From contig NZ_AGFF01000017.1 in NCBI RefSeq assembly GCF_000226215.1, forward strand, positions 1 to 64,000: a stretch of 64,000 nucleotides of DNA, in the 5' to 3' direction. The stretch is from Dietzia alimentaria 72. Lineage in GTDB: Bacteria; Actinomycetota; Actinomycetes; Mycobacteriales; Mycobacteriaceae. Shown piece by piece: positions 8,795 through 48,269 of the stretch (positions within the stretch are counted from its first letter, which is position 1; the number at the start of each line of letters is the position of its first letter). The notes under the pieces were generated by a model. That model saw only the letters and a program-made list of their open reading frames with translations. It was not told the origin of the DNA and searched no databases. Both the position numbers and the translations under genes were made by a program.

Positions 8795-11500
8795 CTACAG
8801 ATCCCCGGGCAGCTTGTCGCGGCGGATGTCACGCCACGAAGCTTGGCGGAGGACGCCGTCCTCGGTGAAACCCTGGTGGCGGACCTCTACGACAAGTTTC
8901 GGCAGGACCCACTTGGCGTCGCGGCGGGCGTCGGCGGGGAGTTCGGCCATGAACGGGCTTGTTTTGCGGGTCAGCGGCTTGAGTTCGTCGAGCAGGGCGC
9001 GCGCCTGCTTGTCGGTGAAGCCCGTGCCCACGCGGCCGATGTAGGTCAGACCCTTCTCGGCGGGCAGTCCCAGCAGGAGTGAGCCCACCGCGCCGCTGCG
9101 TCCGCCTTTGCCCGGCCGCCAGCCGCCCACCACTGCGTCGGTGGTGGTGAGCAGCTTCTGCTTGAGCCACGCCTGCGAGCGCCGTCCGGACTCGTACCGC
9201 GAGTCGCGGCGTTTGGCGACGATGCCCTCCCAGCCGTACTCCTCCGCCTCGGCCAGAGCGCGGTCGCCGGGTCCGTCCAGTACCGCCGGCACGTGTACCC
9301 GCTCCACCTGCGTCAACGCCGGGGTCAGCAGGTCCAGCACCTCCCGACGACGCTCCCACGCCTGCGACTGCAACTCCACGCCGTCGACCTCCAGCACGTC
9401 GAAGACGAACAGCTCCACCTTTGGCAGCGACGAGTCCTTCCCCTCGGCTGCGGCCTGCTTGGCCAGCGACGCGAAATCTGGGACGCCGCTGGGGCCCGGG
9501 ATCACGAGTTCGCCGTCGAGCACCGCCGGCCGCTCCAGGGCCTCGGCCAGCCCGGGGAACCCGTCGGCCAGCCAATCCATCGAGTTGCCGTTGCGGCTGA
9601 CCAGGCGCGTCTGCCCGCCGGACCCGCCGGACCTGCCGGACCCGCCGGACCCGCTGGTCGCGACGGTCACCCGGTAGCCGTCCCACTTGCCCTCGAACGC
9701 CCACTTGTCGTCGGGGAGTTCGGTCACTGTGCCGGCGGTGGGGATCATCGGAAGCGGGGGAGCGTCGGGGCGGTCGGCGGGGTCCGAGGCGCGGTTCGCC
9801 GAGTCGGCCAAGCTGCGGGAGCGCGCGTCGTCCGAGGCGCGGGTCGCCGAGTCGACCGAACTGCGAGTGCGCTTGGCGTCCGCGTCGCGGGGCGCCGCAT
9901 CGTCCGAGCCGCGCGCCCGTTTGTCGCCCGGCGGGTACGACGACTTCGGGTTCGATCGCCCGCCGTAGAAGGAATCCGGCGACTGATCCTTCATGAATTG
10001 CACGATCCACTGGTTCTTATCGGCGTTTGTGCGCACCAGCACGTATCGGCCGGAGACCTGCTCGCCATGGAGCCAGATGATGATCTCGTCGTCGCGCCAT
10101 TTCTCGCACCCGTACGTGCCGCGGTCCCAGATGCTCACGGTCCCGCCGCCGTATTCGCCCTTGGGAATGGTCCCGGAGAAGGTCTCGTAGCCCAGGGGGT
10201 GGTCCTCGGTCTGCACGGCCAGGCGCCGGTCCTTCGGCTCGGTCGGCAGGTTCTTGGGAACTGCCCACGAGACCAGCACGCCCTGGTGCTCGAGGCGGAA
10301 GTCGTAGTGCAGCCGGCGGGCGTGGTGCTCCTGGATCACGAAGATCGGGTCGTCGCCGTCGGAGCGATCGGTGTCGACCTCGCCCTCGAACGGCTCCGGC
10401 GTGTTGCGGCGATCCCGCTTGCGCCGGTACTCCTCGAGGCTGGTGACCACCGCGTCGTCGGACCGAGGCGTGGCGTCGCAGTCGGCGCGCTCGGGGTCGT
10501 CATCGTCCGAAGATGATGACGACGACGATGACGCCGAGGCCTTCTTCTTCCCGCCCGACTTCTTCTTCCGCGATGCCGAACCGGTAGTCGACGCCGACTT
10601 TTTAGTGGATCCGCCCTTGCGGCGCTTGCCCTCGAGGCTCTCGAGGAGGTCGCCGTCTGCGTCGAGACGTTTCAGGACCTCGTCCCAATGCAGGTGCTTC
10701 AGGTCGCCGTCGCCGAGTTCGTCCCACGACCTCGGAGCCGCGACCCACGGCTCGGCCCGCCCGCGCAGGGAGTACGGAGCGACGGTGGTCTTGGCGCCGC
10801 TGTTCTGGCTCCAGTCGACGAACACCTTCCCGTCGCGGATGGAGCGCTTCATGGTGGCGGTGACCAAATCCGGGGTCTGCTTGGCGAGCGACTGCGCGAT
10901 CTGCTTGGCCACGGCGGAGGCGCCCTTGGCGGTGACGGCCTTGTCCAGCCGGGCGTAGAGATGGATCCCCTTGGAGCCGCTGGTGACCGGGAATGATTGG
11001 AGCCCCGCCTCGTCCAGCAGGTCGCGGACGCGCAGGGCCACCTTTGCCGTGGTGTCCAGATCCACGTCCTGGCCGGGGTCCAGATCTATGACGATCCGGC
11101 GCGTCCTGCCCGGCTCGTCCCCGGAGAGGGTCCACTGCGGCACGTGCAACTCCAGCGCGGCCTGCTGGGCGAACCACGCGAGCGTGGCCGGGGAGTCGAG
11201 CACGGGGTAGGTGACGTCGCGCTTGGAATGCTCGAGCGTCACCCGCGGCACCCAGTCCGGCGCGTGGGAGGGGAGGTTCTTCTCGAAGAAGGACTTGTCG
11301 CTGGTGCCGTCGGGCCAGCGCTTGCGGGTCACCGGCCGCTGCCCCGCGTACGTGATGAGCAGGGGCGCCACGGCCTCGTAGTACTCCAGCACCTGCGCTT
11401 TAGTAGTGTCAGTGGCTTCGTAGAGCACCTTGTCGGAGTGGGTGAACCGCACGGTGCGACCGTCGACCTCGACCGAGTCTTTCTGCCCCTTGCTCGCCAT
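8795..11500 (-). CDS. ligD: Multifunctional ATP-dependent DNA ligase LigD
   Basis: 901 residues with three NHEJ modules in order. The primase-polymerase domain (about 1-290) has VIDLDPGQDVD and VFVDWSQNSGAKTTVAPYS. The 3'-phosphoesterase domain (about 375-530) has HHARRLHYDFRLE, and the ATP ligase domain (about 590-895) has the nucleotidyl-lysine motif EGKWDGYR. The order Pol-PE-Lig matches mycobacterial LigD. Linkers are low complexity: a Lys/Ser/Asp run near 290-330, and an Arg/Asp/Ser repeat near 545-600 with recurring ADSANRASD-like units. With Ku (23102) it repairs double-strand breaks. The two genes are not adjacent, unlike in many relatives. Confidence 0.96.
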   Translation of the reverse strand: MASKGQKDSVEVDGRTVRFTHSDKVLYEATDTTKAQVLEYYEAVAPLLITYAGQRPVTRKRWPDGTSDKSFFEKNLPSHAPDWVPRVTLEHSKRDVTYPVLDSPATLAWFAQQAALELHVPQWTLSGDEPGRTRRIVIDLDPGQDVDLDTTAKVALRVRDLLDEAGLQSFPVTSGSKGIHLYARLDKAVTAKGASAVAKQIAQSLAKQTPDLVTATMKRSIRDGKVFVDWSQNSGAKTTVAPYSLRGRAEPWVAAPRSWDELGDGDLKHLHWDEVLKRLDADGDLLESLEGKRRKGGSTKKSASTTGSASRKKKSGGKKKASASSSSSSSSDDDDPERADCDATPRSDDAVVTSLEEYRRKRDRRNTPEPFEGEVDTDRSDGDDPIFVIQEHHARRLHYDFRLEHQGVLVSWAVPKNLPTEPKDRRLAVQTEDHPLGYETFSGTIPKGEYGGGTVSIWDRGTYGCEKWRDDEIIIWLHGEQVSGRYVLVRTNADKNQWIVQFMKDQSPDSFYGGRSNPKSSYPPGDKRARGSDDAAPRDADAKRTRSSVDSATRASDDARSRSLADSANRASDPADRPDAPPLPMIPTAGTVTELPDDKWAFEGKWDGYRVTVATSGSGGSGRSGGSGGQTRLVSRNGNSMDWLADGFPGLAEALERPAVLDGELVIPGPSGVPDFASLAKQAAAEGKDSSLPKVELFVFDVLEVDGVELQSQAWERRREVLDLLTPALTQVERVHVPAVLDGPGDRALAEAEEYGWEGIVAKRRDSRYESGRRSQAWLKQKLLTTTDAVVGGWRPGKGGRSGAVGSLLLGLPAEKGLTYIGRVGTGFTDKQARALLDELKPLTRKTSPFMAELPADARRDAKWVLPKLVVEVRHQGFTEDGVLRQASWRDIRRDKLPGDL

Positions 11501-12653: not shown

Positions 12654-12789
12654 CGCATGGCTGGGCTCAGGTGCTCACCCCGACGGAGATCGGCCCGCCA
12701 AAAGCGATACCTAGAGGCACTGACGGTTTGGATGCTGCAGCCCGACGACGCGGTGGATATAGGTGTGCCGACGCCCGTTATGGTGGGAG

Positions 12790-12872
12790 TCGGCACGGGG
12801 TGCTGCCCAACCGGGCGGCTGAGATCACACCCGTCGAACCTGATCTAGGTAGTTCTAGCGAAGGAATGTCGA
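12790..12872 (+). promoter_or_regulatory. TPP (THI-box) riboswitch
   Basis: All core THI elements are in order: CACGGGGTGC (12794-12803), a P3 hairpin GCCC-AACC-GGGC (12805-12816), CTGAGA (12819-12824), the CCCGT strand (12830-12834) that closes P2 with ACGGG (12795-12799), GAACCTGATC (12836-12845) and GCGAAGGA (12858-12865). P1 can form from TCGGCA (12790-12795) and TGTCGA (12867-12872). The ribosome site AAGGA and the ATG at 12866 lie inside the 3' part of the aptamer. Ligand binding would therefore directly block translation of the leader ORF, and through it the SDR gene. Confidence 0.9.
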
Positions 12873-13006
12873 TACGACGCCCTCAGTGGCGTCAGCGTCT
12901 GGGCCTCGGCCGGTGGCTGCGCACGCCGCCACGCAGCCGGCGAATGCCAGGCAGATATCGCATGCCTGCGCCGGAACTGCCGGGAAGCGAGAGTCATGCG
13001 CATTGA
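12866..13006 (+). CDS. 46-residue basic leader ORF under the TPP riboswitch
   Basis: The ATG at 12866 follows AAGGA, the last conserved part of the TPP aptamer. The frame runs 46 codons and ends at TGA 13004-13006, eleven bases into the next gene. The peptide is Arg/Pro-rich (MSIRRPQWRQRLGLGRW at the start) with no known domain. Its position and terminal overlap suggest a coupling ORF: translation gated by TPP opens the SDR start. A non-coding expression platform is the alternative. Confidence 0.6.
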   Translation: MSIRRPQWRQRLGLGRWLRTPPRSRRMPGRYRMPAPELPGSESHAH

Positions 13007-13760
13007 CGAGCAGATAGTCCTGGTCACCGGAGGCGCCCGCGGGCTGGGTGTGGAGATTGCCCGGGCGTTCGCGCGTGAGGGCGCCGTCGTCGTCGTCAAT
13101 TACCGTCGCAGCGAGGAGGCCGCCTCCGACCTGGTCCGTGAGCTCGGCGGGGACCGCGCCGTCGCACTCCGCGCCGATGTGACCGACGACGACGAGGTGC
13201 GCGCTCTCTTCGAGGCGGCCCGCGCCCACTTCGGGCGGCCCATCACCACGGTGGTCAACAACGCGCTCGCGGATTTCGAGTTCAACGGTGATGCGCGACC
13301 CTCGCCGGAGTCGATCACCTGGGAGCATTTCGAGGGGCAGTTGCGGGGTGCGGTCAAGGGCACGCTCGCCACCACGCAGGCGGCGTTGCCCGGGATGCGC
13401 GAAGCCGGGTTCGGACGGATCGTCACGATCGGCACCAACCTGTTCCAGCACCCGGTGGTTCCGTACCACGACTACACCGCCGCCAAGGCCGCTGCGCTCT
13501 CGCTCACGCGCACCCTGGCCACTGATCTGGGGCCGGAGAACATCACGGTGAACATGGTCTCCGGCGGCCTGCTCCGCACCACCGACGCCAGCGCGGCCAC
13601 GCCTGAGGAGGTCTTTGACCTCATCGCCTCCGGCACTCCGCTGCGTCGGGCGATCACCCCGCCCGAGCTCGCCGATGCCGTGTTGTTCTTCGCGTCCCCG
13701 TGGTCGCGGGCGGTGACGGGCCAGAATTTGATCGTCGACGGCGGATTGGTCAAGGGCTGA
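12996..13760 (+). CDS. Short-chain dehydrogenase/reductase (FabG-like), TPP-riboswitch controlled
   Basis: 254 residues, classical SDR size. The cofactor motif TGGARGLG is at residues 8-15 and the active-site YHDYTAAKAA at about 153-162. N-terminal NYRR after beta-2 suggests NADP preference. The end (GQNLIVDGGL) is standard FabG-like. It starts inside the end of the riboswitch leader ORF and is followed four bases later by the flavin monooxygenase gene, so the three are one unit. A thiamin-related substrate is inferred only from the riboswitch; SDR genes under THI elements have, as I recall, been noted in other bacteria. Confidence 0.9.
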   Translation: MRIDEQIVLVTGGARGLGVEIARAFAREGAVVVVNYRRSEEAASDLVRELGGDRAVALRADVTDDDEVRALFEAARAHFGRPITTVVNNALADFEFNGDARPSPESITWEHFEGQLRGAVKGTLATTQAALPGMREAGFGRIVTIGTNLFQHPVVPYHDYTAAKAAALSLTRTLATDLGPENITVNMVSGGLLRTTDASAATPEEVFDLIASGTPLRRAITPPELADAVLFFASPWSRAVTGQNLIVDGGLVKG

Positions 13761-13764
13761 GACG

Positions 13765-15081
13765 ATGCTGCACTTCAACGCTTTCCTGTTCGGTTGTGGC
13801 CATCATTCGGCGGCGTGGCGGCATCCGGACTCGCCGGTTGAGCGCGTGGGCGACATAGCCTTCTACGAGGAGCTCGCGCGTACCGCTGAACGTGGGTGCC
13901 TGGACGCGGTGTTCTTTGCCGACGGGCATTCGGTGCTCGACCCCGCCAGCGGCTCGTGGTGGTTCCTCGAGCCGCTGACTGCACTGGCGGCCATGGCGCG
14001 CGCGACCGAGCACGTGGGTCTGGTCACCACCATCTCCACTACCTTCTACACACCGTTCCACGCGGCCCGCTCGCTGGCGTCCCTCGACCACATCAGCTCC
14101 GGCCGGGTGGGCTGGAACGTGGTGACCTCGATGTTCGACGCGGAGGCGCGTAATCACGGCTACGAGAAGATGCCCGCTCACGCCGAGCGGTACGCGCGGG
14201 CCGACGAGTTCGTGGACGCGGCCCTCGCACTGTGGGACTCGTGGGACGCCGACGCGTTGGTGTTCGACCGCGACGGCGTGTGGGCCGACCCGGACAAGGT
14301 GCGGCCGATCCACCACCACGGTGAGCACTTCCTCGTGGACGGGCCGCTCACGGTGCCGCGGTCTCCGCAGGGGCGGCCGGTGCTGTTCCAGGCAGGGTCC
14401 TCCGAGTACGGGCGGGACCTGGCAGCGCGTCGCGCGGAGGGGATCTACGCGGTGGCGTACGACGTGGAGTCGTCGCTGGCGTACAACTCGGACATCCGCG
14501 AACGCGCGCGAGCGACCGAGCGCGGCCAGTCCGGTGCGGAGTCGATGGTGATCATGCCGGGACTCGTCACCTACGTGGGGTCCACCGAGGACGAGGCCCG
14601 CCGGAAGAAGGCCGAGCTGGACGCCCTGCTGCCGGTCGAGCAGTCGCTGGCGCAGCTATCCCTGTTCACCGAGCAGGATTGCTCCGACTGGGAGCTCGAC
14701 GCACCGGTGCCCGAGTTGCCGCCGCTCGCCGAGTTCACCGGGCCGCAGGGGCGGTACGAGACGATCCTGCGGATCATCGAGAAGGACTCGCCCACCGTGC
14801 GCGAGCTACTCGGAACCCTCGCCGCCGGGGGAGGGCACTGCACCATGGTGGGCACTCCCGAGTCGATCGCCGACCAGATAGAACACTGGCACCGGGTGGG
14901 CGCGGCCGACGGGTTCAACCTCATGCCGCCCATGTACCCGCACGGGCTGGAGGAGTTTGTGGACCACGTAGTGCCCGTCCTGCAGCAGCGGGGACTATTT
15001 CGGCGGTCCTACGAGCGGCCCGAGGGCGAGGCGGGCGGTCCCGGCGGGCCGATGACGCTACGGGAACTGCTCGGGCAGTAA
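13765..15081 (+). CDS. LLM-class flavin-dependent monooxygenase (NtaA/SnaA/DszA type)
   Basis: 438 residues, the size of the NtaA/SnaA/DszA subgroup of luciferase-like monooxygenases. It has the family opening LHFNAFLFGCGHHSAAWRHP, GWNVVTS near residue 113, and PVLFQAGSS near 208. Members use FMNH2 from a partner reductase to oxidise heterocycles, chelators or sulfur compounds. It is coupled to the SDR gene (four-base gap) downstream of the TPP riboswitch, so I infer oxidation of a thiazole- or pyrimidine-type thiamin fragment. No flavin reductase gene is adjacent. Confidence 0.9.
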   Translation: MLHFNAFLFGCGHHSAAWRHPDSPVERVGDIAFYEELARTAERGCLDAVFFADGHSVLDPASGSWWFLEPLTALAAMARATEHVGLVTTISTTFYTPFHAARSLASLDHISSGRVGWNVVTSMFDAEARNHGYEKMPAHAERYARADEFVDAALALWDSWDADALVFDRDGVWADPDKVRPIHHHGEHFLVDGPLTVPRSPQGRPVLFQAGSSEYGRDLAARRAEGIYAVAYDVESSLAYNSDIRERARATERGQSGAESMVIMPGLVTYVGSTEDEARRKKAELDALLPVEQSLAQLSLFTEQDCSDWELDAPVPELPPLAEFTGPQGRYETILRIIEKDSPTVRELLGTLAAGGGHCTMVGTPESIADQIEHWHRVGAADGFNLMPPMYPHGLEEFVDHVVPVLQQRGLFRRSYERPEGEAGGPGGPMTLRELLGQ

Positions 15082-48060: not shown

Positions 48061-48176
48061 GTCCACAACCTAGTGCTTAGAACCTCGAGCCGCCAGGGTC
48101 CCCGGGCGGGCACTCAGCAGTCGGTGGAGGTGGCTTCCCCGCGGAGGCTGCCATCGGCTACTGTGGTCCTCGCCAG

Positions 48177-48265
48177 CTATCCAGAGCAGTCGAGAAACCT
48201 GGTTCGACGACACTGCAGCAACCCCCCGCGCGAGCGGGTGAGGGTGCTCCCGCCAGGAACGATGG
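48177..48265 (+). promoter_or_regulatory. SAM-clan (S-box-like) riboswitch
   Basis: Core features of the SAM-I/IV clan in order: TATCCAGAG (48178-48186), a P2 stem GCAGT (48186-48190) / ACTGC (48212-48216), GCAACC (48217-48222), P3 CCCGC-GCGA-GCGGG (48225-48238), GGGTGCT (48242-48248), P4 TCC (48248-48250) / GGA (48256-48258), and P1 closure by CTATC (48177-48181) with GATGG (48261-48265). The ribosome site AGGA of the following leader peptide lies within the 3' part. Some loop positions depart from the SAM-I consensus, so a SAM-I/IV variant is likely. Confidence 0.72.
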
Positions 48266-48269
48266 GTGA

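Follow-up and report, generated by a model that had tools for sequence, protein, structure and literature searches.

A candidate thiamin salvage unit under a thiamin pyrophosphate riboswitch in Dietzia alimentaria 72

In Corynebacterium glutamicum, the gene cg0825 for a short-chain dehydrogenase/reductase (SDR) was seen by RNA sequencing to carry a riboswitch for thiamin pyrophosphate (TPP) in its 5' untranslated region (PMC3890552), and the same gene has been called a putative beta-ketoacyl-ACP reductase (PMC4046766). We describe here a locus of Dietzia alimentaria 72, within a stretch of 64,000 nucleotides (positions 1 to 64,000 of contig NZ_AGFF01000017.1, hereafter the window), in which a TPP riboswitch precedes an SDR gene and a gene for an NtaA-type flavin monooxygenase. 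The likeness to cg0825 lies in the riboswitch ahead of an SDR gene and in the name, "(beta-keto)acyl-ACP reductase" being the usual one for this SDR group; it is a likeness by description, and the accessible text of the two papers assigns cg0825 no function. We read the window's unit as one for the TPP-controlled salvage of a thiamin building block, most likely the pyrimidine half, at a probability of about 0.5. That the two genes belong to thiamin metabolism is well supported by the conservation of their surroundings; their substrate and both reactions we infer. An earlier note, made from the letters of this DNA, had proposed an undescribed route to salvage or convert a thiamin precursor, such as an oxidised thiazole or pyrimidine. 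That role emerged as the best reading from a search across several phyla, but the link of a TPP switch to an SDR gene is already in print for C. glutamicum, as the accessible parts of both papers attest (PMC3890552, PMC4046766). Between the two precursors that the note had named, the evidence of genomes and neighbourhoods leans to the pyrimidine.

Other described systems resemble the unit in part. One is salvage by the hydrolases TenA and YlmB with the ThiXYZ importer; the pair in the window consists instead of an oxygenase and a reductase. The aim that they would share is the recovery of 4-amino-5-hydroxymethyl-2-methylpyrimidine (HMP), as described in the accessible part of a published account (PMC10470507), and the host possesses tenA and, under TPP control, an importer whose binding protein is NMT1/THI5-like. 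In the thiMED operon of rhizobia, a TPP riboswitch heads thiM-thiE-thiD and an SDR gene stands fourth in the four records opened; the SDR of the window is accompanied by NtaA, not by thiMED. A third comparison is with ThiV of SAR11, a protein of the sodium/solute symporter family (SSF) encoded behind a TPP switch and described, in the part of the paper accessible to us, as the best candidate for an HMP importer (PMC11452348). TPP-controlled SSF genes occurred near the SDR in 11 loci of other genomes, a likeness to ThiV by family and by control, and none was seen near the pair within the window.

The switch and its two enzymes

The complete THI-box aptamer claimed in the earlier note was accepted at its place by the Rfam covariance model (Table 1), with a match to model positions 1-105 of 105 and a score above the gathering score of 54.3. 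A search of the whole genome (3.35 Mb in 39 contigs) found it again and brought the number of TPP aptamers to two. Both enzymes had also been named correctly. The SDR exceeded the cut-off (292) of the NCBIfam equivalog NF006393/PRK08642, and FabG equivalog models fell far under their cut-offs (e.g. 160.7 against 296), so that the annotated "3-oxoacyl-ACP reductase" is a weak name and probably a misleading one. The monooxygenase gene begins after a gap of 4 nt, and its product lies far over the TIGR03860 subfamily cut-off of 279.7 bits, in the group of NtaA, YtnJ and DszA.

In an alignment of 90 close SDR sequences, Tyr160 and Lys164 were invariant. The usual place of the catalytic serine was taken by threonine (Thr147), which was present in all 57 rows labelled as TPP-controlled and in 97% of the 33 others; the label is pattern-based, and one row that bears it (L087) is without a Rfam match. 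At no position did more than 85% of the labelled rows share one residue and more than 85% of the others a different one. The conserved residues are common to both groups, and the reaction may therefore not depend on whether the switch is present. On a tree of 96 SDR rows the pattern-based label changed 11 times, as against 30.2 times in shuffles, a figure to which near-copies contribute; the four rows closest to the SDR of the window were those of other Dietzia.

Among solved sequences, the nearest to the monooxygenase were YtnJ, which we take to be CmoJ, and MoxC; a nitrilotriacetate monooxygenase, DszA and dimethyl-sulfide monooxygenase came next. No name among the 15 PDB sequences listed was that of a thiamin enzyme. 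Inspection by eye of the open reading frames beside the pair, without a search aimed at one, revealed no flavin reductase. Enzymes of the NtaA family attack a carbon next to nitrogen or sulfur, split the bond and leave a carbonyl product. For the relative CmoJ, the accessible text of one report describes cleavage of a C-S bond with release of an aldehyde, the oxygen of which comes from O2 (PMC10863075). An aldehyde reductase would be a natural partner for such an enzyme.

Recurrence with TPP switches and thiamin genes

GTDB genomes were scanned with the SDR and the best 80 loci were kept, more being present. A TPP signature was scored by the pattern CTGAGA...GAACYTG within 400 nt upstream of the SDR, not by Rfam, and NtaA was considered adjacent when a match of >50% identity over >150 residues lay within 700 nt. 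On these terms 47 loci carried the signature (again 47 with a stricter pattern) and 40 an adjacent NtaA; 36 had both, 11 the signature only, 4 NtaA only and 29 neither. Rfam confirmed the aptamer before the SDR in 18 of the 18 pattern-positive loci tested (9/9 and 9/9); for L087, also pattern-positive, it gave no TPP match. Thirteen loci had been picked mostly for lacking the pattern, and here Rfam found no TPP aptamer in nine and one in each of the remaining four, before the SDR in L085 and at the head of the operon in L047, L068 and L077. In L068 and L077, which are two of the four NtaA-only loci, the aptamer heads a longer operon, and that of L077 had been missed by the pattern.

The pair recurs in Actinomycetota, in alpha-, beta- and gammaproteobacteria, in Bacillota and in Verrucomicrobiota. 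The complete arrangement of aptamer, SDR and NtaA, confirmed by Rfam, was also found on plasmid records of Rhodococcus, Pseudochrobactrum and Mesobacillus; an SDR copy on a Caballeronia plasmid had no TPP aptamer. Because the host genome contains only two such aptamers, and because the same order of aptamer and genes returns in many genomes, the association is more than chance. Each enzyme is, moreover, tied to TPP separately, since in D. massiliensis the monooxygenase and the SDR lie on different contigs and the former stands behind an aptamer of its own (69.6 bits).

The order aptamer-thiM-thiE-thiD-SDR was found in seven loci from three bacterial groups: L047 (Leifsonia), L068 (Arthrobacter), L077 (Cephaloticoccus), and plasmids of one Neorhizobium and three Rhizobium. 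In L068 and L077, NtaA follows next after the SDR. The plasmid search had returned 16 SDR matches, seven of them rhizobial, of which four were opened; the Neorhizobium record was annotated thiM, thiE, thiD, fabG, and the thi genes of the three unannotated Rhizobium records were placed by tblastn. The comparative search that the earlier note had called for thus showed, in more than one phylum, that both enzymes keep company with TPP riboswitches and genes of thiamin metabolism, and this linkage, conserved in unrelated genomes, is what marks them as parts of a thiamin salvage unit.

Transporters formed a further part of the neighbourhood. Twelve of the best 80 loci, all of them beta- or gammaproteobacterial, had an SSF symporter gene no more than about 5 kb from the SDR, and 11 of these 12 genes had a TPP aptamer of their own (eight by direct Rfam scan; three, in L036, L048 and L066, by placing genome-wide matches); the SSF gene of L073 had none. 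In Cryobacterium (L030) the pair is adjoined by a TPP-controlled ATP-binding cassette (ABC) system whose binding protein is NMT1/THI5-like; in L030, L031 and L037 the binding protein encoded at this position was 26-28% identical to that of the host genome (L030, 28%, E 1e-19). OpuA/choline-type ABC genes were also seen near the SDR-NtaA pair in gammaproteobacteria and Arthrobacter (L013 by Pfam OpuAC; L020, L029, L038, L039, L046 and L063 by clustering). The Rfam scans assigned them no TPP aptamer in those loci, and they were therefore not counted as thiamin genes.

Could these be ordinary genes of sulfur or amine catabolism that came to stand behind a thiamin switch by chance? The named relatives of the NtaA family are mostly catabolic, 29 of the best 80 SDR loci show neither the TPP pattern nor NtaA, and a proteome study of Rhodococcus qingshengii lists under probable sulfur acquisition some proteins that resemble the gene in the window by name, as "nitrilotriacetate monooxygenase component A" (PMC8557817). 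The association nevertheless repeats across phyla, it extends to thi operons, and it holds for each of the two genes independently; we consider a chance placement very improbable.

Two observations from the scan are recorded in their own right. Genome G607 has two SDR copies (L100 and L104) about 64 kb apart; the second has a TPP aptamer, and beside it 129 residues match NtaA inside an open frame of 455 codons. In Stenotrophomonas and Luteimonas (L045, L049, L054, L060, L065, L069 and L078), the SDR lacks the TPP pattern and lies near a conserved gene of about 1090 aa on the opposite strand.

Pyrimidine or thiazole

The second TPP aptamer of the host precedes three ABC genes, for an ATPase, a permease and an NMT1/THI5-like binding protein (NMT1, 166.6 bits) in that order, a make-up like that of ThiZ-ThiX-ThiY, and the system is probably a ThiXYZ-like importer. 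The genome contains thiG by Pfam (PF05690), although the thiG frame examined had no NCBIfam match, and beside it thiE and thiO, both over their cut-offs. TenA lies outside the window's unit: tenA is located on another contig (C36; Pfam TENA_THI-4, 164.5 bits; NCBIfam salvage_TenA, 126.8 against a cut-off of 130), and both TPP aptamers lie elsewhere than tenA. The sole match to thiC is fragmentary and interrupted by a stop; the remnant, about 107 residues long, corresponds, in two frames, to residues 236-342 of the 618 of the D. massiliensis protein. With thiC reduced to this remnant, the host should need pyrimidine from outside.

Thiamin genes were then counted in 51 genomes, namely the host and 50 of the best 80 loci, selected because they bore a TPP signature or had NtaA or thiD alongside; left out were L004 and L062, which are contigs of metagenome-assembled genomes, and 28 loci without those marks. 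Full-length thiC was present in 29 and thiG in 47. Nineteen genomes had thiG without full thiC, one had the reverse and three had neither; full thiC was missing from 22, four of which had fragments. In a class-wide sample of 394 genomes, thiG was present in 9 of 9 SDR carriers and in 226 of 385 others (p 0.013), and among the thiG-positive genomes thiC was missing from 5 of 9 carriers and from 56 of 226 others (p 0.053). Within the window's own family (42 genomes), thiC was missing from three of four SDR carriers and from none of 38 others (Fisher p 3.5e-4, uncorrected for kinship). Loss of thiC as a class-wide correlate of the SDR was not supported (p 1.0); it holds within this family only.

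That carriers can make the thiazole, that some of them depend on an outside pyrimidine, and that the adjoining transporters are of the kinds described above together favour the pyrimidine half. Salvage of the thiazole half would require that an oxidised or carboxylated hydroxyethylthiazole be restored for phosphorylation by ThiM. It would agree with the position of thiM at the head of the shared thiM-thiE-thiD-SDR operons and with the sulfur compounds that serve the NtaA relatives DszA and dimethyl-sulfide monooxygenase as substrates. Carriers that keep thiG (full length in 47 of 51, and in 9 of 9 across the class against 226 of 385) have no need to salvage thiazole, however, and the TPP-controlled transporters nearby belong to types that have been connected with pyrimidines, so we regard this explanation as unlikely.

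The absence of full thiC from 22 of 51 SDR genomes, 19 of them with thiG and the host among these, might also be explained if the pair were an oxygen-dependent bypass of ThiC that made HMP from a common metabolite. Such a bypass is highly improbable: thiC is kept by the other 29, its loss is not linked to the SDR class-wide, and the host's TPP-controlled NMT1-type importer would be superfluous for a de novo maker. A further idea is that the pair acts on whole molecules, repairing or detoxifying thiamin that has been damaged or an analogue of thiamin, with TPP control simply timing this to shortage. The SDR does occur in genomes with both thiC and thiG, the former kept in full by 29 of 51, and TPP-controlled SDR genes without an adjacent NtaA occur in two Williamsia loci of which 8 kb of downstream sequence could be inspected. 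Placement behind thiM-thiE-thiD and near TPP-controlled importers speaks for supply, not for detoxification, and repair appears quite unlikely.

Salvage of the pyrimidine half could proceed as follows. When TPP is scarce, the leader would let the mRNA of the SDR and the monooxygenase be made or translated; with TPP bound, expression would fall. The monooxygenase, its flavin mononucleotide (FMN) reduced by another enzyme, would oxidise the CH2 of an imported 4-amino-2-methylpyrimidine-5-CH2-X compound, in which X might be an amine, formamide, thioether or sulfonate left from the breakdown of thiamin, and oxidation there would free the pyrimidine aldehyde. Because the product of the oxygenase would be an aldehyde and HMP is an alcohol, the route calls for a reductase, a part that would suit the SDR: it would reduce the aldehyde to HMP. 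ThiD would then phosphorylate HMP, and ThiE would join the product to the thiazole phosphate made by ThiG. In its most specific form (an oxygen-dependent B1 salvage, from NtaA-type oxygenase through pyrimidine aldehyde and a Thr-for-Ser SDR to HMP, for ThiC-less bacteria living on pyrimidines that TenA cannot use) the proposal is tentative and rather doubtful.

Several observations weigh against salvage of the pyrimidine. Full-length thiC is, after all, kept in 29 of 51 SDR genomes, and class-wide it is present in 4 of 9 carriers and 177 of 385 others (p 1.0). Two of the three thiC-less carriers in the family belong to one genus, and no aptamer was confirmed by Rfam at the SDR locus of the fourth family carrier (G074). 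In the background, loss of thiC with thiG kept is the commoner pattern anyway (61 against 7 for the reverse), and the thiC/thiG pattern is therefore support and not proof. Pyrimidine salvage has a known enzyme in TenA, and 40 of 51 SDR genomes, the host among them, contain it. The pair is therefore no simple replacement of TenA, and X may be something other than the simple amine on which TenA acts. The ThiM of the shared operons works on thiazole, so that salvage of that half keeps some probability. Of the best 80 loci, moreover, the 29 with neither TPP nor NtaA by pattern are mostly from Xanthomonadales and Burkholderiales, and 11 have the signature but, by the criterion used, no adjacent NtaA. 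In two of these 11 the contig ends within 366 nt of the SDR, and in L020 the neighbour is a divergent NtaA-like gene. The TPP-controlled SDR without an adjacent NtaA is found in Williamsia, Tomitella and several Dietzia, and the Tomitella and D. aerolata genomes contained no NtaA match at E 1e-60. An SDR that is useful by itself as a reductase would fit such loci.

Leader, further features and significance

Table 1. Features of the TPP-controlled unit in the window, and two related features on other sequences
Feature	Position	Strand	Remarks
Open frame called a leader ORF by mechanical listing, judged probably non-coding	12671..13006	+	111 aa; spans aptamer
Candidate promoter, -10-like hexamer TATGGT directly 5' of aptamer	12779..12784	+	weak, read by eye from alignment
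TPP riboswitch aptamer (THI element)	12786..12883	+	RF00059, 65.4 bits, E 1.4e-10, full length
Linker / expression platform	12884..12981	+	unconserved across five Dietzia leaders
Ribosome-binding stretch of SDR, GGGAAGCGAG	12982..12991	+	similar in five Dietzia leaders, <=2 differences
SDR-family reductase, PRK08642 group	12996..13760	+	254 aa; NF006393 436.4 bits
NtaA/DmoA-family FMN-dependent monooxygenase	13765..15081	+	438 aa; TIGR03860 519.5 bits
Lone NtaA-type gene with own TPP aptamer, D. massiliensis	L118 3949-5315		ATG just past conserved aptamer core
thiC remnant of host	L105 8352-8668, contig C26		few kb from thiG, thiE, thiO

TPP binding would lower expression of the pair, judging from the known behaviour of this riboswitch class. 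A -10-like hexamer lies immediately 5' of the aptamer, and the transcript therefore probably starts at the aptamer; in an alignment of five Dietzia leaders, read by eye, four had TAnnnT at this site and the remaining one TGTGCT. A sigma-70 consensus scan found nothing. No intrinsic terminator was found between the aptamer and the SDR, which speaks against a terminator-type switch. The minimum free energy of the leader had a z-score of -1.19, folding little better than shuffles, and no clear structure sequestering a Shine-Dalgarno sequence was found; the switch in the window might act on transcription or on translation. In relatives with a short linker (L014, L027 and L118), inspection by eye revealed Shine-Dalgarno-like GGAGG or GAAGG within the 3' part of the aptamer, 8-10 nt before the ATG, which suggests translational control in these loci.

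The earlier note had counted a leader ORF among the controlled genes, and this part of its account did not hold. The frame had no match in Pfam or NCBIfam up to E 0.001, it contains the aptamer, and it starts upstream of the candidate promoter. Conservation among the five Dietzia leaders covered the aptamer and the ribosome-binding stretch; the part between aptamer and SDR was unconserved and varied in length. We rejected a leader peptide on these grounds, and the frame is probably not a gene.

Elsewhere in the window, an aptamer of the S-adenosylmethionine (SAM, S-box) riboswitch was located on the forward strand at 48174-48268 (51.1 bits against 44.4). A three-domain gene of the DNA ligase D type lies on the reverse strand at 8795-11500 (PRK09632, 1029 bits), and models for polymerase, phosphoesterase and ligase all match it.

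Among the papers listed by the literature searches, with few subscription journals covered, none was, judged by title and the opening of its abstract, on a TPP-controlled SDR-NtaA pair, its spread, its placement with thiMED or its chemistry. A comparative-genomics paper of 2002 on thiamin reportedly placed an SDR-like gene, oarX, among the THI-regulated genes; a search for "oarX" together with "thiamin" or "THI-element" found no paper. The main text of a 2013 survey of riboswitch regulons, apart from its supplements, does not contain the words "monooxygenase", "oxidoreductase", "reductase" or "oarX" (PMC3766115). The unit in the window would thus combine a known riboswitch with enzymes of known folds in a new putative role, that of thiamin salvage.

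Auxotrophy for HMP is the most common version of B1 auxotrophy, according to the accessible part of a paper on marine microbes (PMC11452348). The enzymes that convert environmental breakdown products of B1 to HMP are only partly known. If our reading is true, the pair would add a branch to this salvage and would provide a function for SDR genes now named "3-oxoacyl-ACP reductase"; if cg0825 is also an ortholog, the TPP switch that precedes it in C. glutamicum would be explained.

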